IMG/VR virus record: IMGVR_UViG_3300013114_000208
Coordinates: 1 to 64,000 of that record
Length of the DNA stretch: 64,000 nt
Origin: a virus
Strand: one strand, 5' to 3'
Shown here: positions 23,515 through 44,074 of the stretch, in pieces
Position numbering within the stretch: the stretch's first letter is position 1
Layout of the letters: each line of letters opens with the position of its first letter
Made by a program: the position numbers and the translations under genes
The notes under the pieces: generated by a model
Databases searched by the model: none
Told to the model about the DNA's origin: nothing
What the model saw: the letters and a program-made list of their open reading frames with translations, nothing else

Positions 23515-24696
23515 TTAATTATCTAATGTCCATTTAAGACCTAGCATCGGATGTCTTTCACTGTGGTATGTCCCATCATTTTCATTGTATCCTAGCGGTA
23601 AATAATTCTTGTTTGGGTGTTTGGAATATAATCTCTCATATGTAAATTGGTTTTCTGTATCAATATTAGAAGCAAATATTAAATAATCTCTCCATGAATG
23701 CTGAAGAAGTTGTTCTTTAATTTTATTCCACTCGGAATATAATTCATCTTCAGGTTGATGGATTCTTTGTTTTAAATAAGTTTCGTAATTCCATGTACCC
23801 CAATCATTTATACCTTCATAGTGTCCTATAGCACCATAATGCTCACATAAATCTGCAAAATTAATTACATCATATAAATTGGCTTTTTGGAGGACAAAAT
23901 TAAAAGATAATTGAAAATTATTTTCCCTTAAAAAATCTAAATTTGATCTTAATTTATTCCAGTTAGCCGGAGGTCTTACAACATCATATACTGATTTGCT
24001 CCCAGCATCAATACTGATTGTAAATTCTGAAAGTTTTTGCATAATTGGACTATCTTTAACTCGGTTATCTATAAGAGTTCCATTAGTTTTAATTTTAAAT
24101 CGATGTTTATCATTTGGCTCATAATTATACAAAACATCAGACAAAATTTTAGAACTAAAAATCTCTCCACTACCACCCAAAGCACACGAAACAGGTAGAT
24201 CAAAGTCTTTCATTAACGATGTAATTCTATCAGTATATAATTTTCTTTTTTCGTATATTGGACCTTTATTAAAATGAATCAGATCAGTACGACAACTAGG
24301 GCATCGCAAATTACAACTATCATCTGTACAAATTGCAATTTGATATGGTAACGCTCTTGCTTGTTGATACGATTTTGACCACGGATTACAAATTGAAGTA
24401 TCACAAAATTTAAATGTTGTGCCGGTTTTAGTATTGTTTTGGAGTTTTCTAGCAATATTATTAGTCCAAATGTCGGTAAGATCATCGAATTCTAAAATAT
24501 TTCCAACAGAATAAGGTAACCATGCTTCACATGTACATATATAACATTCTCCTAGTTGATCAATTGTTAGACTACGATGTGGATACCAACATGTATAATC
24601 TTTTTCTAATAAAGGACCTTTACGTTCTCTATATTTTCTTCTTACTTGGAATTTAGTTGCCGTAGTATTTGAGAGAATTTTACGATTTATTAACAT
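23515..24696 (-). CDS. Radical SAM protein with N-terminal Cys-rich region
   Basis: A 393-residue protein. The radical SAM 4Fe-4S motif is CNLRCPSC (Cys128, 132, 135). ALGGSGE and IKTNGTLI are SAM-site and barrel segments, and FTISIDAGS follows. Before the barrel, CWYPHRSLTIDQLG, CYICTCEAW and FKFCDTSICNPW supply extra Cys that could bind auxiliary clusters, as in SPASM/twitch proteins but placed N-terminally. Substrate unknown. It overlaps the sulfotransferase-like gene by 17 bases. It is the most separate of the eight radical SAM genes. Confidence 0.85.
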   Translation of the reverse strand: MLINRKILSNTTATKFQVRRKYRERKGPLLEKDYTCWYPHRSLTIDQLGECYICTCEAWLPYSVGNILEFDDLTDIWTNNIARKLQNNTKTGTTFKFCDTSICNPWSKSYQQARALPYQIAICTDDSCNLRCPSCRTDLIHFNKGPIYEKRKLYTDRITSLMKDFDLPVSCALGGSGEIFSSKILSDVLYNYEPNDKHRFKIKTNGTLIDNRVKDSPIMQKLSEFTISIDAGSKSVYDVVRPPANWNKLRSNLDFLRENNFQLSFNFVLQKANLYDVINFADLCEHYGAIGHYEGINDWGTWNYETYLKQRIHQPEDELYSEWNKIKEQLLQHSWRDYLIFASNIDTENQFTYERLYSKHPNKNYLPLGYNENDGTYHSERHPMLGLKWTLDN

Positions 24697-25372
24697 TTGC
24701 TAATTCTGGATAGTAGACAGTTTGTTGTAAGTTATAAGCACGCCAATGTGTTAAACAATATTCACAAATATCGCTATTTGCTAACATTATTAAAATATCG
24801 TCGTAATTTAATATATAATCTTTATAGTACTGTGGATCACGTTGCGTGTATATACTATTTAATTTATTCTGTATTATGGTATCATACAATACGAATTGAA
24901 ATGGATATGACATAGTTAATGTAATCATAGTGTCTGTGAATTTTTTTAAATATTCACATGCTTGTCCTACTACTTGATAAGGTATAGCCTGGGCAGATAA
25001 ATCTTTTAATGGTCGATCTTTTGTACCAACACCATACCCATCTTTATCAGCATTAAACATACTATAGGTATTAGATATTATCTGGTCTTCTGGATTACGT
25101 ACAAGTATAATTAACTGTTTGCCTTTTGTTAAAAATAACTTTTTAGCATGAGCTGCTTCATGCCTAAACTCACACTTCTCACCAATTGAATGAAAATAAC
25201 TCTGTAAGTAATGATTACCAGCACGTTTAGCACCATAGATAACTATAGTATCTTCTGATTCACGTTCAGGAACCTTCCCTGCAGGGAATGGTGTTCTGTC
25301 TTTACTTTTCTTACTATTTGCTAGTTTTTCAAAATCATGTTTACTAACATCACTCTTTCCGTTTTTAGCCAT
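24680..25372 (-). CDS. Sulfotransferase-family-like protein
   Basis: A 230-residue protein with a P-loop-like IVIYGAKRAGNHYLQSYF near residue 50 and IILVRNPEDQIISNTYSM further on, the two PAPS-binding segments of sulfotransferases in the right order. The N-terminal 40 residues are Lys/Ser-rich and probably disordered. It would place sulfate on a glycan made by the neighbouring genes. It differs clearly from the sulfotransferase-like protein at 5945, so the two are not recent duplicates. It overlaps the next upstream gene by 8 bases. Confidence 0.65.
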   Translation of the reverse strand: MAKNGKSDVSKHDFEKLANSKKSKDRTPFPAGKVPERESEDTIVIYGAKRAGNHYLQSYFHSIGEKCEFRHEAAHAKKLFLTKGKQLIILVRNPEDQIISNTYSMFNADKDGYGVGTKDRPLKDLSAQAIPYQVVGQACEYLKKFTDTMITLTMSYPFQFVLYDTIIQNKLNSIYTQRDPQYYKDYILNYDDILIMLANSDICEYCLTHWRAYNLQQTVYYPELANVNKS

Positions 25373-26054
25373 TAAAATAATCTCCCAGTTTTATTTCTTT
25401 AGGATTAAAATTATCATTTTTAATTATATCAATAATTAAATTAGCCATCTTAATATTATTTTCTTCACTCAAATGACATATTCTATCATCTTCTATTTTT
25501 ACATCACTGTATTTTTTCTTAGAAAAACCTTTATTTTTATATTCATTGAAGCTAATTTCTCCTAAGCTAATATCAGCAATTGGTCCACTTTGTGGTATAT
25601 ATTCTTGCATACTATTTTCAAAACAAGGAAACCAAATACATTTTTTTTGTTTTTGAACCATTAATTCATCTATTTGCATTAATATACCTTTTTGTGCCAT
25701 GTTATGATATTCTTCATAAAAAATATGTTTATAATATTTAAGAGCGGATTGTTCGATTGTAGAAGGTGGGCCGCGGTCCCCGGAGCATCCAATCCAGGGC
25801 CTTGGATTGTAAAACATTGGCAATGCTTCTCTATTTGGTAACCTAGCAGGATCTGTAATACAAAATATTACATAATCTGCTTTATCTACCACTGGTAAAA
25901 GCTTTTCATACGAATGAATTAAAGCACAGCCGGCCATACCGTCACATACAATGTTAGCATCATAATGGTGCCATAATAAATTTGGCCATCCCAGATATGG
26001 TTGTTCGTCATATATTTTACAAAAACTATCACCACAAAATGCAATGGAGGTCAT
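25365..26054 (-). CDS. SGNH-hydrolase-like protein
   Basis: A 229-residue protein with the SGNH block I as FCGDSFCKIY (Ser in GDS, residues 7-10), then CDGMAGCALIHSYE as a block II-like Gly/Asn-type region. The final His block is unclear (ICHLSEENN). Such proteins are esterases or acyl/acetyl transferases acting on glycans. Its ATG directly abuts the 46-base repeat at 26055-26100, and no ribosome site is visible in that repeat. Substrate unknown. Confidence 0.65.
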   Translation of the reverse strand: MTSIAFCGDSFCKIYDEQPYLGWPNLLWHHYDANIVCDGMAGCALIHSYEKLLPVVDKADYVIFCITDPARLPNREALPMFYNPRPWIGCSGDRGPPSTIEQSALKYYKHIFYEEYHNMAQKGILMQIDELMVQKQKKCIWFPCFENSMQEYIPQSGPIADISLGEISFNEYKNKGFSKKKYSDVKIEDDRICHLSEENNIKMANLIIDIIKNDNFNPKEIKLGDYFNG

Positions 26055-26100
26055 GGCCGAGTCACACCCAAATAAACTACCTGGTGTGGCGAAATTTTTA
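26055..26100 (-). repeat. 46-base intergenic repeat, copy 1 (inverted copy at 40317-40363)
   Basis: Read on the minus strand this begins TAAAAATTTCGCCA, then ACCAGGT, nine variable bases, then GGGTGTGACTCGGCC. All blocks recur in the same order on the plus strand at 40317-40363. It fills the whole gap between the carbamoyltransferase stop and the SGNH start. CACACC and GGTGTG within it could form a 6-bp stem. Confidence 0.75.
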
Positions 26101-27699
26101 TGTGCATACTTTTACACCGTATAGTTCAGTAAAACGCTTGGCGTCTTCAATGTCATTTACCATTGGCTCGCCTCTAATGTTTAAACTAGTATTTAACAAC
26201 ATTGGACAACCTGTATAATATTCCCACATCTTAAGCAATTTACGTACATTAGGATTATCATTTGGCCCTACCGTCTGCACTCTGCTTGTGCCATCCTTAT
26301 GTACAATCGCCGGAAACTTATCTGGCTGTCTACACCGTCCTACATACTGCATAAACGGACTTGGAATGTGTGTCATTGTAAAATGATGCGGTTGACCTGA
26401 CTTATGTACGGAAAAAGAAGGGCGTGTAGAAGGATGTGCTGGTGTAGTTACTAGTGGCATTTCAAAGTACTCTTCTGATCTCTCTTCGAGTATCATTGGA
26501 GCAAACGGCCTAAACTTTTGCCGACGCTTTATCTCATTTACTTTATCTTTAATGTCTGGCCCGCGTGGATCAGCAAACAATGTCCTATTGCCTAGTGCCC
26601 TTGGACCAAACTCCGCTCTACCGTTGGCAACGCCCACAATTTGACGTGAGGACATTAATTCTTTTATAATTTCTCCATCTGGGTATTCACCTTTTATATC
26701 ATACCCCAGGAACGGCCCTCGCCAGTTTAGTTTCTTACCATATGTTAGGGCGGCCGCGCCTAAACTACTGCCAGCATCACCAGGATTGGGCATAATCCAA
26801 ACATCCTCCCAAATGCGGGAAATATTAGTATTACAAACGCAATTTAACGCAACACCTCCCATGTAAACTAAATTAGGAGACTTGCCAATACGCCGTGCAA
26901 AATTCATTATGTATGTTACAACTTGTTCTAGTGCAACTTGAGCAGAAGCGGCTATATCGTATTGGTCTTGTTCTACCATATCGTCATCTTGTGACGTCCA
27001 TGGCGGGCCACTGTGCCAATCAGTGCCTAAATGTAAGTTTTCTCTTGCACGAAGTATTTTCGGACCGCCAATTTTCCAAAACTTATCTAGTATTTCTCTA
27101 TTATAAATTGGCTCTCCATATGCTGCCATACCCATTAAAATATACTCTTCATCTAACGGCCGCAAGCCAACTTTTTGCGTCATCGCACTGTAAAACAGTC
27201 CTACACTATTAGGATACTTTGCTCCCCAAATTCTTTCATAGCAGGCTTGGCCATTACCATCATAATATGCATTCCATAACGTAATACAATCCCATTCTCC
27301 AATAGCATCTATTACTACTACAGTGGCATCATTAAAAGGACTTGTTTGGAAGCCTGCGGCGGCGTGGCTGTGGTGATGATTATGATAATTAAAACTAGTT
27401 TTGTTCCATCTAAACCCTGTGTTGTATGCTATTTTCTTTTTAATGCTAAACTCTGTAAACAAGTCTTTCCATTGCCCGGAATACAACTGTCTAGTTTTCT
27501 TAAGCCACGGATTTTCATAGTATGAGACAAAATCGGGGTAACCATAATCTAATGCGTTGTTAAGTAACTTGCTGTTTAATTCTTTATCGTGTTTTACTTT
27601 GCTATAACGTTCTGCGTGTCCAGCGAACAATATTTCACCGTCATCTATTAAACTAATTGCCGCATCATGGAAACCGCAACTTACTCCTAATATTTTCAT
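26098..27699 (-). CDS. NodU/CmcH-family carbamoyltransferase
   Basis: A 533-residue protein starting MKILGVSCGFHDAAISLIDDG, the ASKHA-type start of this family. HHHSHAAAGFQTSPF carries the metal-site His residues, and GRAEFGPRALGNRTLFADPR is the strongly conserved C-terminal (YrdC-like side) signature. The family transfers carbamoyl from carbamoyl phosphate, via carbamoyl-AMP, to a hydroxyl of a sugar or antibiotic. Here the acceptor is probably a glycan sugar. It overlaps the upstream SGNH gene by 35 bases. Length is normal for the family. Confidence 0.9.
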   Translation of the reverse strand: MKILGVSCGFHDAAISLIDDGEILFAGHAERYSKVKHDKELNSKLLNNALDYGYPDFVSYYENPWLKKTRQLYSGQWKDLFTEFSIKKKIAYNTGFRWNKTSFNYHNHHHSHAAAGFQTSPFNDATVVVIDAIGEWDCITLWNAYYDGNGQACYERIWGAKYPNSVGLFYSAMTQKVGLRPLDEEYILMGMAAYGEPIYNREILDKFWKIGGPKILRARENLHLGTDWHSGPPWTSQDDDMVEQDQYDIAASAQVALEQVVTYIMNFARRIGKSPNLVYMGGVALNCVCNTNISRIWEDVWIMPNPGDAGSSLGAAALTYGKKLNWRGPFLGYDIKGEYPDGEIIKELMSSRQIVGVANGRAEFGPRALGNRTLFADPRGPDIKDKVNEIKRRQKFRPFAPMILEERSEEYFEMPLVTTPAHPSTRPSFSVHKSGQPHHFTMTHIPSPFMQYVGRCRQPDKFPAIVHKDGTSRVQTVGPNDNPNVRKLLKMWEYYTGCPMLLNTSLNIRGEPMVNDIEDAKRFTELYGVKVCT

Positions 27700-28252
27700 A
27701 GAGTATTTCCGCTATTCTTCTATGGCCTTCTGCTCTTGGGTGGCCTCTAGGACCATGTTCATATTCATATACCCAATTTACTACTGCTTCATCTGGCCAG
27801 CCTATAAAATACTTATCGTCAACTAGTTGCTTAAACTCTGAATCACTATCACTTATGTATTTTTCATTATCAAAACCATTAAACATTATATAAGAAAAAT
27901 TATGCTCTTCAAACCAATCTTGTAAGTCTCTTACATGTACAAAGTATAAATCAAGCAAATATTGCTTGTCTAATTTTTGTAATATTACATCTATTGGGGG
28001 GTTGTCGTTAAATCGTCTGAATGTTGACCACTGTATAATCCAAATTGTAGGCGGGAAGGCTTCAGAAAAACTACCAGTAATAGACCAATAATCTTTTGTT
28101 GTTTGTACTATACCAGCATTATCTTTACCATTTTCACCAAAATTTACTACGTCTAAATTAAGCATCTGTGATAAAATATACGGCCATGCTTCGCTATACG
28201 GTTTATCTAATTCATCTCCGTAAGTAAAACTATCACCATTGGTAAAAATCAT
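27665..28252 (-). CDS. SGNH-hydrolase-like protein
   Basis: A 195-residue protein with block I FTNGDSFTYGDEL (Ser7), a block II-like VVNFGENGKDNAGIV with Gly and Asn, and a C-terminal block V GHPRAEGHRRIAEIL carrying the catalytic His. It is therefore a plausible active SGNH esterase or acyltransferase. It overlaps the carbamoyltransferase start by 35 bases and shares TAATG with the Smr gene, so expression is coupled. It is the shortest and most complete of four SGNH-type genes here. Confidence 0.75.
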   Translation of the reverse strand: MIFTNGDSFTYGDELDKPYSEAWPYILSQMLNLDVVNFGENGKDNAGIVQTTKDYWSITGSFSEAFPPTIWIIQWSTFRRFNDNPPIDVILQKLDKQYLLDLYFVHVRDLQDWFEEHNFSYIMFNGFDNEKYISDSDSEFKQLVDDKYFIGWPDEAVVNWVYEYEHGPRGHPRAEGHRRIAEILYENIRSKLRFP

Positions 28253-28641: not shown

Positions 28642-29550
28642 TCACTCTCCGGGTATTGGCCCCACGCTTCCTGTGATAATTTGTTTGGCTTTTTCATATA
28701 ACAGTTCCGCGGCATCTTTATGTGCCTGTTCAAGTGGATGTGACGTAGCATATGGATAACCATTTGCTTTTGCCCAATCATCGAACCCCATAAACTCTTT
28801 ATCGCCGGGAAATTTAAACCACTCATCAAATTTTATAAAACTATGTAAGCCATTAGTAAACTTATCTATACTAATAAGGCCTTTCATTACATGTTCATTG
28901 ACATATGTAAACATATATTTAACATTTCTACTCTCTAAAAAGTCTTGTAGCATTAAAATTTTCTGTAGTGATGTATATTTGTCATGCAAATCACTTACAA
29001 CTGTATAATATGATTTTGCATAGTCTACTAACCCTAAATCTTTGTTTATTAAATATCGCTTATGCATATCATCATGTACTTCTTGCCAATTTGGCACACT
29101 TTTGGATACTTTTTTAAACCAATTTGATTTAGTCTCATCCTCACATACATAAGGATCTACAGCAAACCACGGACTATCATACCTTTTTATGTCAAAATTT
29201 ACAGCAATTTCTTGTCTTGCCACAAATGTCCACATTACTTGAACAAATATTTCGTCAGGTTTATAGTTGTGTTCTAATGCTTCATATATTATATTAATAA
29301 TATGCCTAACAATATAGGAATTACTACGGCCACTCTCTCCCGTGTTAATATGTTTTGCATTTAATTTATTTGCTGTTAAATTGGCCCAAGAATGTTTACT
29401 TGCAGCTGCGAATGGCCCTAGCCTTATAGGTTGAGTTGGTCGATGATAGGGTGTGCTGGTGACTACCGGCACGTGCATCGTGCCACAATCATCTGACAAT
29501 TCACTACCAAACGTGAAACTATCACCCCCAGAGATTACTAATGTGATCAT
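28642..29550 (-). CDS. SGNH-hydrolase-like protein, paralogue A
   Basis: A 302-residue protein with block I VISGGDSFTFGSELSD (Ser in GDS), block II-like HINTGESGRSNSYIVRHII, DEIFVQVMWTFVARQE, and a C-terminal HPLEQAHKDAAELLYE that carries the His. It is clearly paralogous to the next gene (29522-30496): the same blocks occur in the same order. Both probably act on related substrates. It overlaps that gene by 29 bases. Confidence 0.7.
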   Translation of the reverse strand: MITLVISGGDSFTFGSELSDDCGTMHVPVVTSTPYHRPTQPIRLGPFAAASKHSWANLTANKLNAKHINTGESGRSNSYIVRHIINIIYEALEHNYKPDEIFVQVMWTFVARQEIAVNFDIKRYDSPWFAVDPYVCEDETKSNWFKKVSKSVPNWQEVHDDMHKRYLINKDLGLVDYAKSYYTVVSDLHDKYTSLQKILMLQDFLESRNVKYMFTYVNEHVMKGLISIDKFTNGLHSFIKFDEWFKFPGDKEFMGFDDWAKANGYPYATSHPLEQAHKDAAELLYEKAKQIITGSVGPIPGE

Positions 29551-30496
29551 ATATTATCTCCGCCGCATCTATATGTGCTTGTTCTAATGGGTGGCCTCCA
29601 GGACCAAATTTATATTTTTTCCTCTTCTTTGTTGGACTTGTGCGTTGTGATCCGGCTGCCCAATTCCAAAAACCAATATAATCTTTTTCTGGGCGTTTAA
29701 ATCCACCATACGATTTTCTATCAAACATTTCCCAAGAAGAAAAACTAAACCACTCATCAAATTTTATTTCTCTACGCAGTTCATCAATAATATCTATAGG
29801 TGTATCTAAATCTGTTGTATATTCATTTTTTACATCTATACCAGTAAGTTGATCTATAACCTCAGAGTGTACATACGTAAACATATATTTAATGTTTCTA
29901 TTCTCTAAAAATTCTTGTAAAAATAAAATTTCTTTAAGAGATATATAATGATCAGTTAACTCTCCAGTAACTTTATAATACTCTTCTATATAATTTGCAA
30001 ACCCTATAAGTTTATTATCAACATCATCTAAAGCACTATGTGGATCTACATTAAACCATGGAGAATCCGGTCTATCATAATATATTGGACCAGTTCCAGG
30101 CTTGCCTGCTTTGCCTCCTCGATCATACTCGTGAAGTAAATTATTAACAAGAACTTCGTGTCTTCCAAGATATGTCCACATTACTTGAACGAATATTTCA
30201 TTAGGTCTATACGGACGAATTCGGCCTGGCCGTCCGAGTATTCCGGAATTAATGTTCTGATTGTAGTGTAATGCTTTAGATACTTCGTGTATGATATGCC
30301 TAGTAATAAAACTATTACTTCGACTAGGCCAAGCAGTATTAATATGTATTGCTTTTAATTTTTGTGCTACTAGATCTGCCCAGGAAAATTTACTTGGCAT
30401 TAGCTGGACAAGCGTCTTTCCAGTTTCATCAATATCTGACAACTCACTGCCAAAGGTAAAACTATCACCACCTGATATTACTAATTTAACAGACAC
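29522..30496 (-). CDS. SGNH-hydrolase-like protein, paralogue B
   Basis: A 324-residue tandem paralogue of the gene at 28642-29550. Shared blocks are VISGGDSFTFGSELSD, HINTAWPSRSNSFITRHII, NEIFVQVMWTYLGRHE, FLENRNIKYMFTYVH and GHPLEQAHIDAAEIIYD. It has a longer middle segment with a Gly-rich loop. The His block GHPLEQAH is intact. An esterase or acyltransferase role on a glycan is inferred. It overlaps both neighbours. Confidence 0.7.
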   Translation of the reverse strand: MSVKLVISGGDSFTFGSELSDIDETGKTLVQLMPSKFSWADLVAQKLKAIHINTAWPSRSNSFITRHIIHEVSKALHYNQNINSGILGRPGRIRPYRPNEIFVQVMWTYLGRHEVLVNNLLHEYDRGGKAGKPGTGPIYYDRPDSPWFNVDPHSALDDVDNKLIGFANYIEEYYKVTGELTDHYISLKEILFLQEFLENRNIKYMFTYVHSEVIDQLTGIDVKNEYTTDLDTPIDIIDELRREIKFDEWFSFSSWEMFDRKSYGGFKRPEKDYIGFWNWAAGSQRTSPTKKRKKYKFGPGGHPLEQAHIDAAEIIYDHISNLWG

Positions 30497-33363: not shown

Positions 33364-33374
33364 GTCACCTTCCT

Positions 33375-34430
33375 TTACCTTTCGTCGTATATTGATCCAG
33401 TCTTTTGACCGTTGGTAACACCGTCACATGTATCTGTAATATGTTTAATAATACGATACGGGTCTGCATTACCTGCTGGACGCCTATCTTCCAAGTAACC
33501 GTGCCAATCATTTTGTGTAGTATAAATTGGAATTCGTATACTTGCACCGCGATCACTAACACCATAACTAAATTCATCTATGCTTTGTGTTTCATGTAAC
33601 CCTGTTAAACGTTGGTCGTTGTCTGAACCATACTCTTTGATGCCAATTTCGTGAACCTTTCCTAATGCTTCACACATATTGGTCATTAATTGCTCCGTTC
33701 CATAACTTCTCATGTTATTATTAGAGAAATTTGTATGCATACCTGTGCCATTCCAGTCACCCTTTACAGGTTTAGGTGCAAGGTTAATTGACACGCCATG
33801 TTTTTCAGCAATTTTAATTAAAATATATCTTGCCATCCAAAGGTCATCGCCTGCTTTAACTCCTTTTCCTAAAACTTGGAACTCCCATTGCCCTAAGGCA
33901 ACCTCTGCATTGGTTCCTGTAATGCCAATTTCTGCATTCATACATGCTTCGGTATGTCGGTCAACAATTTCTCTACCAACAACATTGTCACTACCTACAC
34001 CACAGTAGTAATCTCCTTGTGCCCTTGGCTCTCCTTTTTTAGGCCAGCCTAATGGACGTCCATCCTGGTACATAAAGTACTCTTGTTCAAATCCAAACCA
34101 CCAATCGTCACTAACATTCTTAACTGCGTGACGTGTATTACTAGGATGTGCTTTATTTTCTGAGTCTAAAACCTCACACATGACATAAGTTGCACTCATG
34201 TCTTCGCCTGTCATACGTCTTGTTGCATCTGGTCTAATTCTATCAAGCATATAATACTGTGAAACAGGATTTAAAATACAATCTGAACTTCCACCTTCCG
34301 CTTGTTGCGTTGATGAACCATCAAATGACCATCTTACTGCGTTGTTATCAATTTTTACTTTACTTCTTAATGAAGGTTCTGGCGTATAACCATCTAGCCA
34401 GACATACTCAAACTTTTTTCCGTGATTCAT
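33375..34430 (-). CDS. Glutamine synthetase, type II (eukaryote-like)
   Basis: A 351-residue GSII, the normal length for this class. [31 protein letters not shown] (metal Glu residues), [36 protein letters not shown] and [13 protein letters not shown] are the GSII signatures in order. It makes glutamine from glutamate, ammonia and ATP, and so can supply purine and carbamoyl phosphate synthesis. The start at 34430 gives an ATGA overlap with the upstream radical SAM gene. The type I adenylylation region is absent, as expected. Confidence 0.95.
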
Positions 34431-37104: not shown

Positions 37105-38314
37105 TAAACGACTCAGAACGAATCTTATCCATTTTAGCGGTGAGTGCCATAAACTCTAAGAATAGTCTAGCATTGCTCGGTTGTTCAATAAAGTTAATTG
37201 CACTTTGAAAACCATTGGTTGCACGTTGGAGAGGATCGATTGGACTAAGATAGTCGATATGTCGTTTGTATTTTTCTATTACCGCCTCCTTATCTGGCAT
37301 TGGTAAATTGTCTATACGGTAATGCGGAGGATTCATTAGTATATTCACATTGAAGTCAGGTGCTTTAATTAGGCCATAGTTAATCCATTCTTTATGAAAG
37401 TCTGGCATATGATACGAATTCAGTATACTCAACGTGCAACTTATATAGAAATCAACGTTTGGGCATACTCGTAACATCTGTTCTCTATTATCGACTATAT
37501 CTTTCCATACAGTTTCTTTCCTTATATACTCTCCTCGCATACCCGAACCGTCTAATGAAGCACCTATACTAACGGAGTCAAACTCTTTCCACATATCCAG
37601 TATACTCAATTGCTTATATTTGAGTTGCGAAAAATTGGTATTGTATATTAACTTAACGTCGGTTCTATTTTGCTTTAGTAATTCGGCAATAATCTCCCAA
37701 TGTGCGGCCATCATTAGGGGTTCTCCACCAGCGAAATATATCTGTTCTACGTATGGTATATGCCTGATACACTCTTCGATATCCAGATTACACGTAATAA
37801 CCTTACTATTTGTAGGGGAATTTTGGTGTAATTTAACATAATCCTGATACCAATTGCTTGAAAACAGGGGACCACACGTTCGACAGCGAAAATTGCATAG
37901 GTTGCTAAACCGAACATCCCAGTATATTATCTCATAGTCTGGTTCTATACTATTGGCCTTTGCTATATGGTGGCCGAAATGTTTATTCGCTGATACCCGG
38001 CCGCTCATAAAGCCATTTTTATCTTGTTCATAACACTTGACGCATTCTGGATTGTGTAGTCCATCAATCATTCTATTACGTATATTCACCATATGTTCGC
38101 TATGCCAAATTTCCTCCAGCGTGTTATCATTTAGATTACCGACTGGCATATCCATCTCACTCATACAGCATAGATGAACAGAACTATCTGGGTATGCGTG
38201 TAAATGTGTCCAAGGATACATACAGAATGATGGGTTTTCTTCTAATACCAATTGTTGGTATAGTGAAAGATCATTCCAATCAATCTTTAGTGGCTTTTTA
38301 TCATTATAGTCCAT
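37070..38314 (-). CDS. Twitch-domain-type radical SAM protein 3
   Basis: A 414-residue protein. The N-terminal region has FCMYPWTHLHAYPD, LCCMSE and CVKCYEQ; the radical SAM motif is CNFRCRTC (Cys140, 144, 147). YFAGGEPLMMAAHWEII holds the GGE, LIYNTNFSQLKY and SIGASLDGSGMRGEYIRKE follow. It is closest to the gene at 38337, with which it shares long blocks including RFSNLCNFRC and ATNGFQSAINF. That pair is the most recent duplication in the group. It overlaps radical SAM 2 by 35 bases. Confidence 0.85.
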   Translation of the reverse strand: MDYNDKKPLKIDWNDLSLYQQLVLEENPSFCMYPWTHLHAYPDSSVHLCCMSEMDMPVGNLNDNTLEEIWHSEHMVNIRNRMIDGLHNPECVKCYEQDKNGFMSGRVSANKHFGHHIAKANSIEPDYEIIYWDVRFSNLCNFRCRTCGPLFSSNWYQDYVKLHQNSPTNSKVITCNLDIEECIRHIPYVEQIYFAGGEPLMMAAHWEIIAELLKQNRTDVKLIYNTNFSQLKYKQLSILDMWKEFDSVSIGASLDGSGMRGEYIRKETVWKDIVDNREQMLRVCPNVDFYISCTLSILNSYHMPDFHKEWINYGLIKAPDFNVNILMNPPHYRIDNLPMPDKEAVIEKYKRHIDYLSPIDPLQRATNGFQSAINFIEQPSNARLFLEFMALTAKMDKIRSESFNETFPEFSFVN

Positions 38315-38336: not shown

Positions 38337-39665
38337 TTAAGACCTCTCCGGGAAGGTTTTGAATAGTGGTATCAACTCTGGGAATACCGTTTGAAAATCT
38401 TCATTACGGTGGTTATCATACTTGGTAATTTCTTTACGGAACTCTGGTATAAGATCCGTTCTATCTTCACTATACATAAAGTTGATTGCACTCTCGAAAC
38501 CATTGGTGGCTCGCTTAATGTCGTCGGCATCTGCTATACTACTTATGTGTTCTTCGTATAGTGACTTAACTTCTTCCTTCATATAGTCGGGTAGTATACT
38601 GAGTCTATAATAGTCGGGCCCTTGGAGAATGTTTACATGAAAGTCGTATACGCCTATAAGGCCGCGCTCTACCCAATCGTTATGAAAGTCTGGTAGGTGG
38701 TATGCGTTTAATACCTGCAATGTGGCACTGGGAAAAAAGTCTACGTCTGGGCACACATCGAGCATGTCGTAACGATTCCTTACTATAGTATCCCATACCG
38801 TTCCCTTACGTATATACTCTGCTCTATCACCCATTCCATCTAACGATGCTCCTATACTGACATCATCGAATAATCTCCACATGTCGAATACTGAACGCCC
38901 CTTATACTTGACTTCCGAGAAGTTAGTATTGTATACTAACGATACATCTAACTTATCTCGCTTAATCAATTCATCCATTATACGCCAGTGTTCTTCCATC
39001 ATTAAAGGCTCACCTCCTGCCCAGTATATCTTATGGAGATTGTCTATATATGGCTCTATCATTTCCCAGTTTAATTGCTTATTACCCCGTGTATAACTTA
39101 TTTTCTCTATATCCGACTGCCCATACATACTGTTATACTCGTTTACCCAATTAGAACTAAACTGTGGCCCACACATCCTACACTTAAAGTTACACATATT
39201 GGTAAAGCGAACATCCCAATAGATTGGATTAACTGGTGATGAACCATCAGGAGTGGTGGTGATATCCTTTATACTATATGCGAAATTTCTATTACTCTCA
39301 TTACGTAATGAATAAAACCCATTACGCTCCTTCTCATAACACTTATTACACTCCTTACACGGTATGCCATTGAGCATATTGTGTCGCATAGTCCTATAGG
39401 AGGCATTGTTCCATACTTCTTCGAGTGTATAATCTCTAAGATTACCTATAGGTTCATTAGGCTCTGCCATACAGCACGGGTAAGCATTACCATCGGACCA
39501 TCCGTGTATATGGATCCACGGTAGCATACAGAATACATCACTATTACATAATAAGTCACGTTCTTCTATAGTAAAGAAGCTATTAGGCAACGATTGTTTA
39601 TTACGATCCAATAACAGTGTAGTGGTATTGAATGGTGTATCTTTGTTAAGGTAACCTTTATCCAT
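38337..39665 (-). CDS. Twitch-domain-type radical SAM protein 4
   Basis: A 442-residue protein. N-terminal Cys segments are FCMLPWIHIHGWSDG, YPCCMAEP and CKECNKCYEKERNGF; the radical SAM motif is CNFKCRMC (Cys158, 162, 165). YWAGGEPLMMEEHWRIMDEL carries the GGE; LVYNTNFSEVKYKG and IGASLDGMGDRAEYIRKG follow. It is a close paralogue of radical SAM 3. It is the first gene after a 185-base gap on this strand, so it may have its own promoter. No ribosome site is seen before the ATG. Confidence 0.85.
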   Translation of the reverse strand: MDKGYLNKDTPFNTTTLLLDRNKQSLPNSFFTIEERDLLCNSDVFCMLPWIHIHGWSDGNAYPCCMAEPNEPIGNLRDYTLEEVWNNASYRTMRHNMLNGIPCKECNKCYEKERNGFYSLRNESNRNFAYSIKDITTTPDGSSPVNPIYWDVRFTNMCNFKCRMCGPQFSSNWVNEYNSMYGQSDIEKISYTRGNKQLNWEMIEPYIDNLHKIYWAGGEPLMMEEHWRIMDELIKRDKLDVSLVYNTNFSEVKYKGRSVFDMWRLFDDVSIGASLDGMGDRAEYIRKGTVWDTIVRNRYDMLDVCPDVDFFPSATLQVLNAYHLPDFHNDWVERGLIGVYDFHVNILQGPDYYRLSILPDYMKEEVKSLYEEHISSIADADDIKRATNGFESAINFMYSEDRTDLIPEFRKEITKYDNHRNEDFQTVFPELIPLFKTFPERS

Positions 39666-40316: not shown

Positions 40317-40363
40317 TAAAAAATTTCGCCAAACCAGGTGTTTCGGCTGGGTGTGACTCGGCC
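40317..40363 (+). repeat. 47-base intergenic repeat, copy 2 (inverted copy at 26055-26100)
   Basis: Reads TAAAAAATTTCGCCA, ACCAGGT, nine variable bases, then GGGTGTGACTCGGCC on the plus strand, the reverse orientation of copy 1. It lies between the radical SAM gene ending at 40381 and the small membrane gene starting at 40263. The two copies bracket about 14.2 kb containing genes from the carbamoyltransferase to the membrane proteins. Confidence 0.75.
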
Positions 40364-40380
40364 CCGCCCACTTTAGCGTA

Positions 40381-41745
40381 TTAGTCATGGGGTAGTTCCT
40401 CATACCATTGTTTTAAGTTAGGGAAAGTCTCTGTAAAGTTCTTGTTTCGTCGTGTGTCGTATTGTTTATAGAAGTGATAAAAGTCGTTCTGTAGTGCTTC
40501 TGGTTCGAACGTATCGCTGTGTGGTTTATCTACTACACTTAAATAATCTAACAGTCGTAGTATGTGATTGCCTTCCATTTCGTGTAGATTGTCTTCGTTT
40601 AAAACAAGCCATTGCTCTAAGTTGTCTCTGTATTGTTGCCGTATTGATTGCGGTAGCACTAGTGGAGATTGGAAGGATGGAAACCTTAATATGTTTAAAG
40701 TAAACGTAGGAAAGTCACGTCCGTACTGTTGTTTAAAACTCATTACGTGATCTAAGAACTTTGGCAAGGAATCCAAGCACAAACTGTTAATAGTACACAT
40801 CATATGGAAGCCTTCTAAATTACCGTCCCTACATACACGATGGCAGTTTTCTACCCATTTATCCCATACTAATCCGTCTCTAATATACTCTGCTTGTGCG
40901 CCGAATGCTTCACAAGATGTATATAGATGTAAGTGTGGAATATGTTGTGCGTTCTCTATAAAGCGATCTATTAGTTCGTCTTTAGCACCTAAGTTAGAAT
41001 TGATAGCGAGCCTCATATCGGACTTTTTGTCTGTTAGTTTGAACCATTCAAATAACTTCCATATTTCGCCCGACATTAAGGGTTCGCCACCAGTTATCCT
41101 AAACTCATCTAGTGTTTCGTGTAGTTCTTCTTGCCACCATTGCCAAAAGGCTTCTGTAAATGGATTTGTTTCGTCGTGCTTATATAACTGTGCTTCGTTG
41201 TGTTGATGTGTGAAATGGTTACGGCCGTCTGACTTTAATTTCTCGTAGGAACCATTGTTCTTTATATCCTTTACCCAGGTACTACTAAAAGCAGGATTGC
41301 AATAAGAACAAGCAAAATTGCAAGTCCTATCAAAGGCGGCCTCGAGAGTGCGTAATGCAAAGTTTTCTTCGGCATCTTTTTGTCTAACATAATGTACGTC
41401 CTCCTCATCATATATGACGCTTTTATGGACACGATCGGATATAGCATCGGGCCCAATATCTTCTATTTTCCAACAGTATTCACAACCGGGTGGCCTTTCG
41501 CCTGCAAGCATTTGTTCTCTATCTTGCTTTTTTTGTTTTGTATTATGAATAGCTGATGAATTATTTAGTAGTTCTTTAATATCTATTTTGTGTGCCGGCG
41601 GGTGGTGACAACTAGTAGTCATACCACTTCCAAGCCATATAGTAGCGTTTCGCCACTTGGCCATACAAAATGATGGACTTACTGTCTCGTTAAGCCATCG
41701 TTTAATTTTTAAATCTGATTCTCTACCTGGTGTTCTTAATGTCAT
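40381..41745 (-). CDS. Radical SAM protein 5, N-terminal Cys-rich type
   Basis: A 454-residue protein. N-terminal segments SFCMAKWRNATIWL, SCHHPPAH and CEYCWKIED precede the radical SAM motif CNFACSYC (Cys142, 146, 149). FRITGGEPLMSGEIWKLFEW holds the GGE; LYTSCEAFGAQAEYIRDG and CTINSLCLDSLP follow. It belongs with the gene at 42647, which has the same SYC motif and the MRTGGEP-like block. Together they form a second subgroup distinct from radical SAM 1-4. Coupled to the next gene by ATGA. Confidence 0.85.
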   Translation of the reverse strand: MTLRTPGRESDLKIKRWLNETVSPSFCMAKWRNATIWLGSGMTTSCHHPPAHKIDIKELLNNSSAIHNTKQKKQDREQMLAGERPPGCEYCWKIEDIGPDAISDRVHKSVIYDEEDVHYVRQKDAEENFALRTLEAAFDRTCNFACSYCNPAFSSTWVKDIKNNGSYEKLKSDGRNHFTHQHNEAQLYKHDETNPFTEAFWQWWQEELHETLDEFRITGGEPLMSGEIWKLFEWFKLTDKKSDMRLAINSNLGAKDELIDRFIENAQHIPHLHLYTSCEAFGAQAEYIRDGLVWDKWVENCHRVCRDGNLEGFHMMCTINSLCLDSLPKFLDHVMSFKQQYGRDFPTFTLNILRFPSFQSPLVLPQSIRQQYRDNLEQWLVLNEDNLHEMEGNHILRLLDYLSVVDKPHSDTFEPEALQNDFYHFYKQYDTRRNKNFTETFPNLKQWYEELPHD

Positions 41746-42650
41746 GAGAAGTATTGCTCAGTTGTCCATTGACCGCTAAATGCTGTTGTAGCACACGCTC
41801 TATGGCATACTTTATCTAAATGTTTAGATAGTATGTTCTTTTCTAAATTATACCATTTCGTTGATCTATCATTGATATTTACTATAGGATCACCCCACTG
41901 GTCATCTTTTTGTGCATGTGCTACGTGTGTCCAACAACATGGATACCATAATCCTTCTGCACTTAAATAAACACTTTTCTGTTTTTCCACGTGGCATGCA
42001 AACTCTTTATCTTTCATTTCAAATGAATGATTGGTAGGCGGCTCCAATCCAGTGTTGGGGTTATGTGCAAATCTGCTAGTTGCTTTAGTTTTAAATGCTT
42101 TAAATCCCATATCCTTTGCTAATTGTTTTGCTTCGTCTATCTGGTGTTCGTTGTGTTTAAATACAATCATGTCCACTTGCCCTACACCTCCTGCATTGAT
42201 AAATGTTTTAGCATTTTTCATTAAGGTTTTCCATACAACATTTTTTCTATATAAATGATTAGTATCTTCTAATCCATCAATAGCAAATATAACACGACTA
42301 GCAGGGTTGCTTCTTGTTAGATAAGCAATATGAGTCCATAATTTTGTGCTTCCTATCCCACCATTTGTGTGTATTGAAACATGCGTTTGTTGATTCATTT
42401 GTCCAATCCATAACATCATTATGCGTAAATCTTTACACGCGATAGGATCTCCAAATGAACCACAAAATTGTACATGGTCTAAGTTGTGTATTAATGGTTT
42501 TACTAATGTTTTAAATTGATTAAATGATAATTCTTTATTTTCCATAGTCCTATGATAACCCTGTAGAGTTCTAATACACATAGGACACTCTGCCTGGCAT
42601 ACTGTAGTGGGTTCTACATGTAATTTTTTAATATCCGCTACAAAAGTCAA
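41742..42650 (-). CDS. Radical SAM protein with C-terminal SPASM-like region
   Basis: A 302-residue protein with the radical SAM motif close to the N-terminus: VEPTTVCQAECPMCIR (Cys18, 22, 25). CGSFGDP takes the usual GGEP position, and IFAIDGLEDTNHLYRK is a barrel segment. The C-terminal CHVEKQKSVYLSAEGLWYPCCWT and CHRACATT look like a SPASM-type cluster region. This order is the reverse of its neighbours and matches classic peptide- or sugar-modifying SPASM enzymes. Substrate unknown. ATGA overlaps on both sides. Confidence 0.85.
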   Translation of the reverse strand: MTFVADIKKLHVEPTTVCQAECPMCIRTLQGYHRTMENKELSFNQFKTLVKPLIHNLDHVQFCGSFGDPIACKDLRIMMLWIGQMNQQTHVSIHTNGGIGSTKLWTHIAYLTRSNPASRVIFAIDGLEDTNHLYRKNVVWKTLMKNAKTFINAGGVGQVDMIVFKHNEHQIDEAKQLAKDMGFKAFKTKATSRFAHNPNTGLEPPTNHSFEMKDKEFACHVEKQKSVYLSAEGLWYPCCWTHVAHAQKDDQWGDPIVNINDRSTKWYNLEKNILSKHLDKVCHRACATTAFSGQWTTEQYFS

Positions 42651-44074
42651 CGTGCTAACCTCTCACATTCTTCCCACCAATATATCATTTCAGGGAATGT
42701 TTTTATAAAATTAGTGCCACGACGTTTGTCGTGCTCAGTAAAAAAGCGATAAAAGTCTGCTTTACAGTTGTCTATATACTCTGGATCTAACTTATCACTC
42801 TCTTGCCACCACGCCAAGTCGCGTTGCATACGTTGGACTTCATAATCCTTAAAGCCTTTAAAGCGAGTTTTCTCATCTTCCATGTTATCCAACATCCAAC
42901 ATATGTTCTCATCGTGTATATCTTGATATGGTTCAGGCAATAACTGTATGCTTTGCCAAGCAGGCTGTCGCAATAACGGCGTATCAAACCATACACGTTG
43001 ATAAGTTTCGCTGTATGCTTGTCGCAAACCGTGTATATAGGCTAATAACTTATCCATTCCTGAAACACTTAAATTATTATATGTTATAATAAACGTTAAA
43101 GAGTTTCTATACGGAACTTCCGTTAAGTATGTGTTGATGTTATCACACATCTTATTAAAATCTAACCCATTACGTATATACTCTGCTTGTTCCATCCAAC
43201 TATCTACACTAACGTATTGCATAAAGTGTTCTACCTTCTCATCTAAACATATACGTTTAACTTTATCTAAATACTTGTCAAACAATTTGTTGTCTACAGG
43301 ACTAAAGTTACTTGTAACGTTTAAATGTAAGTCGCTTTTGGGGTTGTCTATAATGTAATCAAATACTTTATGCGTATTTTTATCCATCATAGGTTCACCA
43401 CCAGTCATACGGAAATGCTTTAAGTCTTTATATAAGTCAGGCCACCATTCCCAAAACGCATGTACATAAGGATTATATTTGCTGTGTGGTATGCAAGGAT
43501 TAATCTCAAAGTGTTCAGGTGCGTTATGTGGTTTAGATGTAGGCCATGCACCGTGTTGTTTCATTTCCTTTTCCCACGCAGTACTAAACTGTGGACTACA
43601 GTAACTACATTTTAAGTTACAGTTATGATTAAAGTTTACTTCTACATAACGCGGGTTCTTATCTGCATCCCACGGAGCATTAACTATATTATCAAAGTCC
43701 ATCTGTGCCCACGGCTCACCACTTCTGTAATGTCTATCACTCATATGCCCAGTATCTTCTATGTTCCAACAGTACTGGCACTCGCTAGGACGTTCGCCTT
43801 CTAGCATAAGTTTACGCATTTCTTTCTTATGTTGTGTATTATGTAATGCAGATGGAGTGTCTAACTCCATTTTATGCAGTGGTGGATGATAGCAACTGTT
43901 GTTTAAGCCTGTAGGTAAATGTAAACTAACTTGATTCCATTTAGCAAGACAAAAGGATGGAGACACTGAGTCTAACTGTACTTTAATATCCTCAGCACTT
44001 CTATAGAAATCTGACTTAAACTTTCCATCCTTAACTTCTATTTTGTCGCCCTTATTATCTTTATAAAGTTCCAT
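42647..44074 (-). CDS. Radical SAM protein 6, N-terminal Cys-rich type
   Basis: The ATG at 44074 is used (475 residues); it overlaps the upstream stop as TAATG. Segments SFCLAKWNQVSLHL, SCYHPPLHKME and CQYCWNIED precede the radical SAM motif CNLKCSYC (Cys152, 156, 159). FRMTGGEPMMDKNTHKVFDY carries the GGE, and VTSNFSPVD and VSVDSWMEQAEYIRNG follow. It is the most complete partner of the gene at 40381. From memory similar proteins are widespread in marine T4-like phages, without known function. Confidence 0.85.
   Translation of the reverse strand: MELYKDNKGDKIEVKDGKFKSDFYRSAEDIKVQLDSVSPSFCLAKWNQVSLHLPTGLNNSCYHPPLHKMELDTPSALHNTQHKKEMRKLMLEGERPSECQYCWNIEDTGHMSDRHYRSGEPWAQMDFDNIVNAPWDADKNPRYVEVNFNHNCNLKCSYCSPQFSTAWEKEMKQHGAWPTSKPHNAPEHFEINPCIPHSKYNPYVHAFWEWWPDLYKDLKHFRMTGGEPMMDKNTHKVFDYIIDNPKSDLHLNVTSNFSPVDNKLFDKYLDKVKRICLDEKVEHFMQYVSVDSWMEQAEYIRNGLDFNKMCDNINTYLTEVPYRNSLTFIITYNNLSVSGMDKLLAYIHGLRQAYSETYQRVWFDTPLLRQPAWQSIQLLPEPYQDIHDENICWMLDNMEDEKTRFKGFKDYEVQRMQRDLAWWQESDKLDPEYIDNCKADFYRFFTEHDKRRGTNFIKTFPEMIYWWEECERLAR

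Follow-up and report, generated by a model that had tools for sequence, protein, structure and literature searches.

Why should one phage genome carry eight radical SAM genes on a single strand, and what could their products jointly act on? The question arises from the window, i.e. the whole stretch of 64,000 nucleotides analysed here (positions 1 to 64,000 of IMG/VR virus record IMGVR_UViG_3300013114_000208). The original prediction, made from the window alone, took the eight genes for a multi-enzyme modification pathway acting on glycans, a peptide or nucleic acid.

Radical SAM genes of the window

All eight open reading frames were found on the minus strand where they had been placed, and the CxxxCxxC motif was present in each of them:

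42647..44080, minus: R42, N-twitch radical SAM protein (CSYC), first radical SAM gene of the order (NF033640, 312.6 bits)
41742..42650, minus: accessory radical SAM protein with C-terminal cysteines (phrog_21308, 4e-18)
40381..41745, minus: R40, N-twitch radical SAM protein, CSYC subgroup (NF033640, 321.9 bits)
38337..39665, minus: R38, N-twitch radical SAM protein of R37's orthologue group (NF033640, 397.2 bits)
37070..38314, minus: R37, N-twitch radical SAM protein, group R37/38 (NF033640, 370.8 bits)
35719..37104, minus: R35, N-twitch radical SAM protein (NF033640, 341.6 bits)
34427..35785, minus: R34, N-twitch radical SAM protein, last of the order (NF033640, 273.6 bits)
23515..24696, minus: divergent N-twitch radical SAM protein, accessory (Pfam SPASM at residues 36-98, 25.7 bits)

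Adjacent genes overlapped at 34427-35785/35719-37104, 35719-37104/37070-38314, 40381-41745/41742-42650 and 41742-42650/42647-44080. R34, R35, R37, R38, R40 and R42 matched the NCBIfam model NF033640 (N_Twi_rSAM, for an N-terminal twitch domain ahead of the radical SAM barrel) at 273.6-397.2 bits (E 3e-81 to 8.7e-119), above its curated cut-off of 170 bits, which was missed by 23515 (36.7 bits) and 41742 (35.5 bits). When the complete record of 77,823 bases was searched for members of this family, exactly the same eight genes were returned and no further ones. Scored as whole proteins, all eight were below the cut-off of Pfam PF04055. The name of model NF033640 gives no function, and to our knowledge no substrate or function is known for any N_Twi rSAM enzyme. 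Nothing that pointed to nucleic acid as a substrate turned up incidentally.

On the N-terminal side of the barrel, four auxiliary cysteines were present in the six proteins for which they had been predicted, and in 395 of 403 N_Twi ORFs overall, but the count of six was too low; it rises to seven with 23515, which aligned with the N-twitch set at E 1.2e-6 (hhalign) and ran colinear to the six across residues 27-282. The proposed CRMC-like and CSYC-like subgroups were recovered in the tree, where the CSYC pair 40381 and 42647 shared one superclade (support 97) and the others stood apart. For 41742, a classic C-terminal SPASM layout had been described; the cysteines are visible, but Pfam listed no SPASM domain there, and the best PHROG match was phrog_21308, a radical SAM family. 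Best-hit relatives of 23515 and 41742 occurred in only 10 and 5 of 80 viral loci, respectively, and this sporadic occurrence speaks against all eight genes being one unit. The core is a set of five orthologue groups in six genes, to which 23515 and 41742 are accessory.

Gene order and orthology across viruses

The viral loci were gathered with R34 as search query, and gene-neighbour counts are best-hit relatives of window genes in the resulting 80 truncated loci. The 403 N_Twi ORFs comprise 395 from these loci, six from the window and two from Vibrio phage K566. Four or more radical SAM copies were found in 73 of the 80 loci, and the tree of the copies resolved five orthologue groups, nearly always with one copy each per virus. 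The R42 clade (63 of 81 sources; clade support only 26), the R40 clade (68 sources) and the R34 clade (79 sources) never occurred twice in one source, and the R37/38 and R35 clades (51 and 56 sources) were each present in more than one copy in two. Of the 81 sources, 33 had the exact order R42-R40-R37/38-R35-R34; in the 63 sources with enough flank, the five groups were all present in 36. Fewer than 60 nt separated the neighbours in 246 of 341 radical SAM pairs. Four loci had double radical SAM fusions, in each of which both the CxxxCxxC and the GGEP motif occurred twice. The CxxxCxxC cysteines were intact in 403 of 403 ORFs, and in 324 of 324 when the R34 group, selected by the search pattern, was left out. 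Gene order, orthology and the double fusions together point to one pathway. The predicted multi-enzyme pathway is supported by near-single-copy groups, conserved order, tight spacing, intact cysteines and co-occurrence with SGNH-like, carbamoyltransferase and repeat genes; neither a lack of conserved co-occurrence nor a loss of cluster-binding cysteines in homologues was observed.

The phage of the window was treated as T4-like. The major capsid protein Gp23 (PF07068) was found in 16 of 42 relatives' records, i.e. in 16 of the 22 longer than 100 kb, and was absent from the 77.8-kb fragment itself. Gp53 (PF11246) was not found in the 77.8-kb fragment either; at E <= 0.001 it was detected in the records of 15 out of 42 relatives, with six over the cut-off. 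The notion that only single radical SAM genes are known in phages did not hold, as the T4-like genome TARA_ERS488813_N000010 (183 kb) is described in passages of PMC5332604 as having 12, discussed there as Fe-S metabolism. By that description it resembles the window in its many radical SAM genes and, probably, in its T4-like affiliation.

Sugar genes around the cassette

The cassette follows fibre-like genes and lies amid GT8-like glycosyltransferases, a carbamoyltransferase and SGNH-like proteins, with a dehydratase/DegT/Gfo-Idh set on the opposite strand, so that glycosyltransferase and sugar-nucleotide genes stand in the same block as the radical SAM genes:

17338..18333, plus: NAD-dependent nucleotide-sugar epimerase/dehydratase (Pfam Epimerase 122.8, GDP_Man_Dehyd 116.8 bits; 28/80 loci)
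18311..19444, plus: DegT/DnrJ/EryC1 sugar aminotransferase (Pfam 327.5 bits; 31/80 loci)
19434..20345, plus: Gfo/Idh/MocA oxidoreductase (Pfam GFO_IDH_MocA_C3 38 bits; only 2/80 loci)
20287..23508, minus: repeat protein, C-terminal part related to 44074 (53/80 loci)
24680..25372, minus: possible sulfotransferase, by motif only (no Pfam match)
25365..26054, minus: possible SGNH-like protein, from the sequence by eye only (no Pfam match)
26098..27699, minus: carbamoyltransferase, NodU/CmcH type (Pfam Carbam_trans_N 136.4, Carbam_trans_C 164 bits; 57/80 loci)
27665..28252, minus: SGNH/GDSL-like protein (Pfam Lipase_GDSL_2 21.1 bits, below cut-off; 24/80 loci)
28642..29550, minus: SGNH-like protein by motif, DUF6071 (Pfam 41.8 bits; 21/80 loci)
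29522..30496, minus: SGNH-like paralogue of 28642 (motif GDSFTFGSELSD common to both; no Pfam match)
30486..31592, minus: conserved partner of R34, no known family (58/80 loci)
44074..45108, minus: conserved protein, likened to glycosyltransferases only by its IDGDN motif (family alignment; 48/80 loci)
45950..46813, minus: GT8-like glycosyltransferase (glycogenin matched by the family profile, 5.4e-7; Nucleotid_trans of Pfam below cut-off at 17.3 bits; 37/80 loci)
46791..47630, minus: second GT8-like glycosyltransferase, a relative of the 45950 family by hhalign (E 2.2e-27, probability 99.8%; no PDB hit of its own; 32/80 loci)
48020..48934, minus: Thr-rich protein, fibre-like by eye and encoded upstream of the cassette (family alignment; no Pfam or PHROG match; 20/80 loci)
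49027..50571, minus: virion structural/tail-fibre-like protein (17 PHROG families, including tail fiber and virion structural ones; 14/80 loci)
51317..63838, minus: giant virion structural protein of 4173 aa, block boundary (phrog_10938, 847.5 bits; also matches baseplate wedge families)

As the counts show, SGNH-like, carbamoyltransferase and repeat genes accompany the radical SAM genes in relatives' loci, as the prediction had proposed to check. Of the 58 viral loci with a relative of 30486, 57 had it no more than 200 nt away from R34; profile searches of NCBIfam, Pfam and the PDB gave no hit for 30486, and its model (pLDDT 75.8) had no PDB match at E <= 0.001. In the gene of repeat protein 20287, diverged repeats recur in the DNA about every 195-201 nt; the protein aligned with 44074 over residues 857-1069 (BLASTP, E 5e-10), and its relatives ranged from 94 to 1284 aa, the shortest being clipped by contig ends. 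For 44074 itself there was no Pfam match, no credible PDB hit and no link to the GT8 family. Genes 28642 and 29522 have DNA in common (families D5, D9 and D12). With 24680, phmmer against the PDB matched four entries at E 0.5-3.6; sulfotransferases accounted for two of these, at 0.6-0.7. A scan of cassette insert genes elsewhere, with one representative per cluster, revealed UDP-sugar dehydrogenase (6 ORFs), GDSL-like (7) and SAM synthetase (3) genes in or just after the cassettes. None of the 1306 viral-locus ORFs of at least 150 aa had four or more predicted membrane segments, indicating that assembly is probably cytoplasmic.

A similar layout is described in passages of PMC7029224 for the host recognition cluster of pelagimyophages and cyanomyophages, a variable region in which genes for tail fibres and for glycosyltransferases of GT8 type lie behind a large structural gene. 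O-chain modification by the glycosyltransferases is proposed there and radical SAM cassettes are mentioned for two genomes; the role, order and orthology of the radical SAM genes are not given in those passages.

Over 23 bacterial genomes, carbamoyltransferase genes lay within 10 kb of the N_Twi rSAM family in 12 of 36 cases (expected 0.73) and DegT genes in 7 of 86 (expected 1.6), as did 2 of 118 genes of the control Aminotran_1_2 (expected 1.96). Among direct bacterial neighbours, carbamoyltransferase was found four times near and once farther away, and glycosyltransferase family 2 was not enriched (3/105 near vs 7/86 farther away). Four Bacteroidetes loci (L114, L119, L131 and L135) combined radical SAM genes with carbamoyltransferase and epimerase homologues. 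L119, which resembles a surface-polysaccharide locus, also had a GDSL-like protein and a GT4-type transferase; it is like the phage in combining radical SAM, carbamoyltransferase, epimerase, GDSL-like and glycosyltransferase genes, but differed in having one N_Twi gene and no five-gene cassette. In the likewise surface-polysaccharide-like L109 (Bacteriovoracaceae), an R40 orthologue abutted an exporter pair of ABC-2 permease and ABC ATPase, with DegT and carbamoyltransferase-like genes. Both bacterial loci have membrane proteins, which the phage loci lack. In Vibrio phage K566, the radical SAM hits adjoined a gene whose only PDB match was a WbbM protein (E 0.0038), and in QD01 an annotated LPS heptosyltransferase lay near the radical SAM genes. 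Some bacterial N_Twi arrays were without obvious sugar genes, e.g. L102, which adjoins ribosomal L21 and Obg, and the carbamoyltransferase proximity might be due to gene islands instead of a common pathway.

Candidate substrates and competing explanations

We lean slightly towards a carbohydrate pathway that T4-like phages encode in their host-recognition region and in which about five of the tailoring steps are radical reactions. We infer a carbohydrate as the radical SAM substrate, and likewise what type of reaction takes place, how many steps there are and which acceptor finally receives the product. The soluble enzymes encoded at 17338-20345 on the opposite strand would make a modified (amino-)sugar, and the glycosyltransferases 45950 and 46791, perhaps with 44074 and 20287, would assemble the glycan. 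About five paralogous N-twitch enzymes might each abstract hydrogen at a different carbon of the sugar or glycan intermediate, resulting in oxidation, epimerisation or deoxygenation, and the carbamoyltransferase and SGNH-like proteins would finish the product. This may be joined to the fibres whose genes lie just upstream of the cassette or, slightly less likely, be built into the host's surface polysaccharide.

Of the predicted substrates, glycans are favoured by the evidence, with peptide or protein still a candidate. Direct modification of a tail fibre or peptide, with the sugar genes being neighbours that have another job, is rather unlikely in our estimate but a serious rival. It has precedent in the SPASM/twitch enzymes of RiPP pathways, which introduce cross-links or epimerised or oxidised residues. 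In fold comparisons, structural neighbours of the AlphaFold model of R38 (pLDDT 91.0) were tied between the sugar/nucleoside enzymes BlsE (Z 13.0) and DesII (12.8) and the peptide/protein enzymes SkfB (12.8) and anSME (12.8), and Foldseek, in favour of this rival, ranked the peptide enzymes SuiB, SkfB and anSME first. BtrN, DesII and BlsE, which act on sugar-like substrates, have the radical SAM fold in common with the window enzymes (Z 12.8-13.0 for DesII and BlsE). The N-terminal domain of the latter resembles by profile the twitch-like C-terminal auxiliary domain of BtrN (E 0.0039; residues 183-258), which lies behind the barrel, whereas in the window enzymes the auxiliary domain comes first. 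Tandem TPR-rSAM fusions in an Elusimicrobia bin and a PqqD-family protein beside the radical SAM genes of L109 would suit a protein or peptide substrate, as would the structural genes directly upstream of the cassette. A PqqD model made from two sequences only (L109 and L146) matched in 4 of 78 bacterial loci (also L104 and L174) and in none of the 80 viral loci, a weak counter-argument with so narrow a model. Against protein modification, the gaps of fewer than 60 nt are too short for a precursor gene at those places, with one elsewhere still conceivable, and the sugar genes recur in T4-like phages, bacteria and Vibrio phages.

The radical SAM genes might also be a mosaic of independent acquisitions without joint function, given that copy number varied from 3 to 21 matches over 42 whole records, that R37 and R38 are a duplicate pair in the window and that accessory copies come and go; the recurring exact order, the joint presence of the five groups, their near-single copy number and the double fusions make this improbable. 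Even less probable is the production of nucleotides with an antiviral-like or signalling role (chain terminators of the viperin kind), or nucleic acid modification, in phage-phage or phage-host conflict. Viperin likeness was weak in profile (4e-6) and fold (Z near 12); prokaryotic viperin was rejected at 19.8-29.6 bits with NF038283, far under the cut-off of 180, and the listed neighbours are sugar genes. We know of no N-terminal twitch domain in the viperin family. Redundant host-metabolism genes, as aquatic-virus radical SAM genes have been read in passages of PMC9301287 (ahbD) and PMC5332604 (Fe-S metabolism), are hardly credible even with PurC, YqeY and glutamine synthetase beside R34, since the heme synthase AhbD was rejected (TIGR04545: 34.5 bits for 23515 and 21.9 for 41742 vs a cut-off of 500; none of the six N-twitch proteins listed at E <= 0.01) and the copies, which fall into five distinct orthologue groups and have their cysteines intact, are not redundant.

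Within the carbohydrate reading, a more specific version is put forward tentatively: an N-twitch assembly line in which five paralogues would each make a different radical modification on one growing cytoplasmic glycan or glycosylated fibre, diversifying or masking the host-recognition surface. This glycan code, dominated by radical SAM enzymes, would be common to many T4-like phages, with a simpler form in Bdellovibrionota and Bacteroidota. A literature search brought up no paper in which a glycan is tailored by several radical SAM steps in succession. The data suggest that in many aquatic phages an uncharacterised radical chemistry is at work, its target probably being a coat of surface sugars, and the stable, ordered five-part set of N_Twi_rSAM members in uncultured T4-like phages makes this a concrete, testable pathway. 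Some radical SAM 'auxiliary metabolic genes' of aquatic viromes could, as a guess, be surface-glycan rather than heme genes. Passages of PMC9301287 report 261 ahbD calls in aquatic viruses, with PF13186 and PF04055 both present in only three of the ahbD contigs; as all eight window proteins are below the PF04055 cut-off, such a domain test would miss the N_Twi family.

Radical SAM genes and their order in related viruses

All eight radical SAM (rSAM) ORFs of the original prediction were found on the minus strand, with coordinates in agreement, and searching the complete record (77,823 bases) with the family returned the same eight genes. Six proteins (R34, R35, R37, R38, R40 and R42) scored 273.6-397.2 bits against NCBIfam NF033640 (N_Twi, radical SAM proteins with an N-terminal twitch domain before the barrel; cut-off 170), and those at 23515 and 41742 scored about 36 bits each. 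In the six N_Twi proteins the radical SAM triad is preceded by a twitch-like domain at the N-terminus whose four cysteines are invariant. The protein at 23515 showed a diverged version of this layout, with a Pfam SPASM match at 36-98 and an hhalign match to the N-twitch set (E 1.2e-6, residues 27-282). A radical SAM protein with a C-terminal SPASM domain had been expected at 41742; it is indeed a radical SAM protein, shorter than the others and related to phrog_21308, and the SPASM domain itself was seen by eye only. The predicted CSYC-like subgroup was recovered, R40 and R42 falling into one superclade (support 97). The operon is tightly packed except at 39957-40380, where 424 bases between R40 and a 94-aa ORF contain no coding-strand ORF of more than 80 aa.

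Relatives were collected from a viral-contig scan, from which the best 80 of at least 563 confirmed relatives, ranked by likeness to R34, were kept as viral loci; counts made on these best 80 are not prevalences among T4-like phages at large. In addition, 42 of the 80 records, hand-picked mostly for length, were searched as whole records. Gp23 was found in 16 of the 42, which are 16 of the 22 longer than 100 kb, and Gp53 in 15 at E ≤ 0.001 (6 above cut-off). The source record itself, a linear IMG/VR fragment, matched neither the Gp23 nor the Gp53 model. Because of the matches in their records, the relatives carrying the cassette (the row of rSAM genes) are assigned to the T4-like phages and the window virus is very probably T4-like as well, with which baseplate wedge and virion structural matches in the window agree. 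Upstream of the cassette are the gene of a 4173-aa virion structural protein and a tail-fibre-like gene. The block is classed here as a host-recognition region of a phage in which radical SAM enzymes predominate. Scans of the window for tRNAs and Rfam families were empty.

At least two N_Twi genes (score ≥100) were present in 77 and at least four in 73 of the best 80 loci, with a median of five and a maximum of nine per locus; the 42 whole records held 3 to 21 matches each (E ≤ 0.001). A FastTree tree was built from 516 sequences, 392 viral (among them the six of the window and two of Vibrio phage K566) and 124 bacterial, restricted to rSAM ORFs of 330-540 aa and hence without fusions. With an orthologue group defined as the smallest clade with all rows at least 42% identical to the window gene, the window's N_Twi genes fell into five groups. 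The groups of R34 (79 sources, support 67), R40 (68 sources, support 99) and R42 (63 sources, support 26) never had two copies in one source. More than one copy was seen in two sources each for R35 (56 sources, support 93) and R37/38 (51 sources, support 98), the window being one of the latter. R42 is the least certain clade of the five because of its low support.

The exact order R42-R40-R37/38-R35-R34 occurred in 33 of 81 sources, and the window shows the same order plus the R37/R38 duplicate. All five groups were present in 39 of 81 sources; of the 63 loci whose flanks were long enough, 36 had all five. Thirteen sources had only R42-R40-R34; the order counts are lower bounds because of the size limits of the tree and the group definition. 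Four loci (L048, L051, L066 and L030) carry double-rSAM fusions, in each of which both the CxxxCxxC and the GGEP motif appear twice. Among 403 N_Twi copies of at least 330 and less than 650 aa scoring at least 100, the radical SAM triad was unbroken in all, and 395 had kept all four auxiliary cysteines. These look like enzymes under selection rather than decaying copies. Simple amplification of rSAM copies was ruled out by the tree. Similar-looking N-terminal extensions of about 150 aa were noticed in three R37-group enzymes (L018:6163-7845, L023:7088-8791 and L037:7091-8791); the two scanned, L018 and L023, gave no Pfam match there.

Genes accompanying the family

Neighbours in the viral loci, which are incomplete at their flanks, were counted as best BLASTP matches (E ≤ 1e-4). 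The labels SGNH, IDGDN, sulfotransferase, PurE and fibre, where given by eye or by motif, have no database behind them. Relatives of 30486 were present in 58 of the best 80 loci, and in 57 of the 58 loci having both no more than 200 nt separated them from R34. In the window the two are set apart (31589-34445) by genes for YqeY, a PurE-like protein (by eye), PurC and glutamine synthetase, a metabolic-gene insertion in this phage. Co-occurrence with carbamoyltransferase, repeat and SGNH genes, raised in the original prediction, was observed among the best 80 loci: carbamoyltransferase relatives in 57, relatives of the repeat gene 20287 in 53, and two SGNH-like relatives in 24 and 21. The same loci contained relatives of 44074 (48 loci), of the GT8-like genes 45950 (37) and 46791 (32), of DegT (31), of the fibre-like gene 48020 (20) and of the epimerase (28, of which those at 22-25% identity may be general family members). 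Three genes follow one another on the opposite strand of the window, for a sugar epimerase/dehydratase (17338), a DegT aminotransferase (18311) and a Gfo/Idh/MocA oxidoreductase (19434); relatives of the last were found in only 2 of the best 80.

Other viral loci add gene clusters whose scanned representatives were a UDP-sugar dehydrogenase, a SAM synthetase or a GDSL-like protein. The SAM synthetase gene (L046:13130-14230, 3-member cluster) lies downstream of the cassette. Inside a cassette lies the gene of a radical SAM protein (L033:5342-7099, 2-member cluster) that matches a B12-binding domain weakly. Another downstream gene (L021:12254-12862, 11-member cluster, one representative scanned) encodes an APS-kinase-like P-loop domain plus DUF2061 and could supply a sulfate donor. 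A 62-member family of about 300-540 aa (e.g. L049:4092-5201) occurred in 40 of the best 80 loci, with 54 members inside cassettes and none in the window; it had no Pfam match, and its profile none in the PDB. By eye it looks GT-B glycosyltransferase-like (EKI.KP...GHP motif).

From the genome collection, 167 relatives were obtained and 78 loci kept, many from Bdellovibrionota and Bacteroidota and some from one Elusimicrobia bin (by title). Seven MAG loci (L097, L098, L101, L105, L141, L142 and L171) look like phage contigs because of their matches to window genes. In L102, eight N_Twi copies adjoin ribosomal L21 and Obg genes, so this array is chromosomal. A Pfam search covered 105 of the 213 near bacterial neighbours and 86 of the 214 farther ones; its picture was weak and partly contrary, and a genome-wide proximity test then followed. 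The latter covered 24 of the 78 loci (23 genomes), hand-picked mostly for long contigs, and used 150 of 153 rSAM matches; distances were taken between gene starts, and genome sizes were rounded values. Within 10 kb of an N_Twi gene lay 12 of 36 carbamoyltransferase genes (0.73 expected; 0 of 200,000 simulations reached 12), the remaining twenty-four not being near one. DegT and control searches, at E limits of 1e-40 and 1e-25, placed 7 of 86 DegT genes (1.6 expected, P 0.001) and 2 of 118 control Aminotran_1_2 genes (1.96 expected) within this distance.

The Bacteroidetes locus L119 has the order rSAM, carbamoyltransferase, GDSL-like protein, membrane protein, GT4-type transferase and epimerase. 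In L109 an R40 orthologue adjoins an ABC-2 permease and ATPase, followed by PqqD, an endosialidase-chaperone domain protein, DegT and a carbamoyltransferase-like gene. Near N_Twi genes of Bacteriovoracaceae, a PqqD-family protein was seen next to an endosialidase-chaperone (Peptidase_S74) domain protein; PqqD matches were located as follows:

L109:8939-9698, PqqD/Peptidase_S74 pair (Pfam)
L146:14049-14819, PqqD/Peptidase_S74 pair (models)
L174:2563-3324, PqqD and Peptidase_S74 models in one ORF
L104:5424-5723, PqqD model match only

The Elusimicrobia bin (L120-L124, L138) contained N_Twi genes in tandem rows, five of them, in L124, fused to TPR repeats (543-1078 aa).

Of 50,697 isolate-phage records searched by tblastn with R38, R42, R34, 30486 and 44074, only four Vibrio phages (K566, K567, QD01 and VS1) and a single-cell contig of marine origin gave distant rSAM relatives; none gave a relative of 30486 or 44074. 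K566 showed five rSAM matches, lying among genes that by eye resemble glycosyltransferases; the sole PDB match of one of these genes was WbbM, and another had no PDB match. QD01, whose recorded host is V. natriegens Vmax, showed three rSAM matches, with an annotated heptosyltransferase nearby and also queuosine-type and NAD genes.

Substrate and acceptor

Nearly single-copy orthologues, conserved order, tight packing and fusions favour the multi-enzyme pathway proposed originally, which would be a single pathway of some five distinct radical steps. T4-like phages, Vibrio phages and some of the bacterial chromosomes carry sugar genes alongside the family, and for this reason a carbohydrate is the preferred substrate, with a shade better than an even chance. 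That the rSAM enzymes modify a protein directly appears rather unlikely; it draws on the TPR fusions and PqqD neighbours in bacteria, which count against a carbohydrate, as do some bacterial N_Twi arrays without sugar genes and the weak Pfam neighbour scan. We know of no substrate for the N_Twi family, which was also counted against a carbohydrate. Heme (AhbD) and viperin readings were ruled out by model cut-offs.

The predicted structure of R38 (pLDDT 91.0, pTM 0.89) gave radical SAM enzymes as partial matches only in Foldseek and VIA-align. Foldseek was led by SuiB, SkfB and anSME, and by Z score BlsE, SkfB, DesII and anSME were tied (12.8-13.0). Since these neighbours are tied across both, the predicted fold does not discriminate between sugar and peptide substrates. 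The six-protein profile matched viperin (4e-6), MoaA (3e-4) and BlsE (0.002) over the barrel and BtrN (0.0039) over the N-terminal domain. The roles of BtrN, DesII, BlsE, anSME, SuiB, SkfB and WbbM are taken as general background beyond PDB names and titles.

The best 80 viral loci contain 1306 ORFs of 150 aa or more; by a plain hydropathy rule not one of these had four or more predicted membrane segments, and two control proteins had six each, which suggests that any glycan would probably be made by soluble enzymes. For the preferred carbohydrate substrate, such assembly in the cytoplasm and the location of the cassette after fibre genes would make the fibre the natural acceptor, a host polysaccharide being the main alternative.

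In passages of earlier papers, 12 rSAM genes are reported from one T4-like genome (PMC5332604) and rSAM cassettes are mentioned in pelagimyophage host-recognition clusters (PMC7029224). An N-twitch rSAM cassette acting on glycans was not found described in the open full-text literature, preprints and most subscription journals aside, nor in the open literature were the ordered five-group set, its orthology and the statistical link with carbamoyltransferase.

Individual proteins of the window

The profile of 45950 matched glycogenin (E 5.4e-7); that of its relative 46791 had no PDB match. For 30486, neither the profile nor the predicted structure (E ≤ 0.001) matched the PDB, and by these models it has no recognisable relative or fold. 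Profile matches of 44074 in the PDB were short or weak (best TRI-05, E 0.001, 25 positions) and no link to GT8 was found, so its reading as a putative glycosyltransferase is motif-based. A sulfotransferase assignment of 24680 is weak (two PDB matches at E 0.6-0.7). It is likewise weak for two N_Twi enzymes (L086:12490-14442 and L055:3081-5018) whose N-terminal extensions resemble a sulfotransferase P-loop domain: that of L086 gave Pfam Stf0 (0.0036) and no PDB match, and that of L055, sulfotransferase-like by eye, no such Pfam match. The repeat protein (20287-23508) has no Pfam family and differs in length among relatives. The tandem-repeat finder reported no array there, and diverged repeats were present in a separate repeat listing. 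The units, diverged and about 65 aa long, have a high content of W, F, H and D (FDFSWHPD...QWQRDGG).
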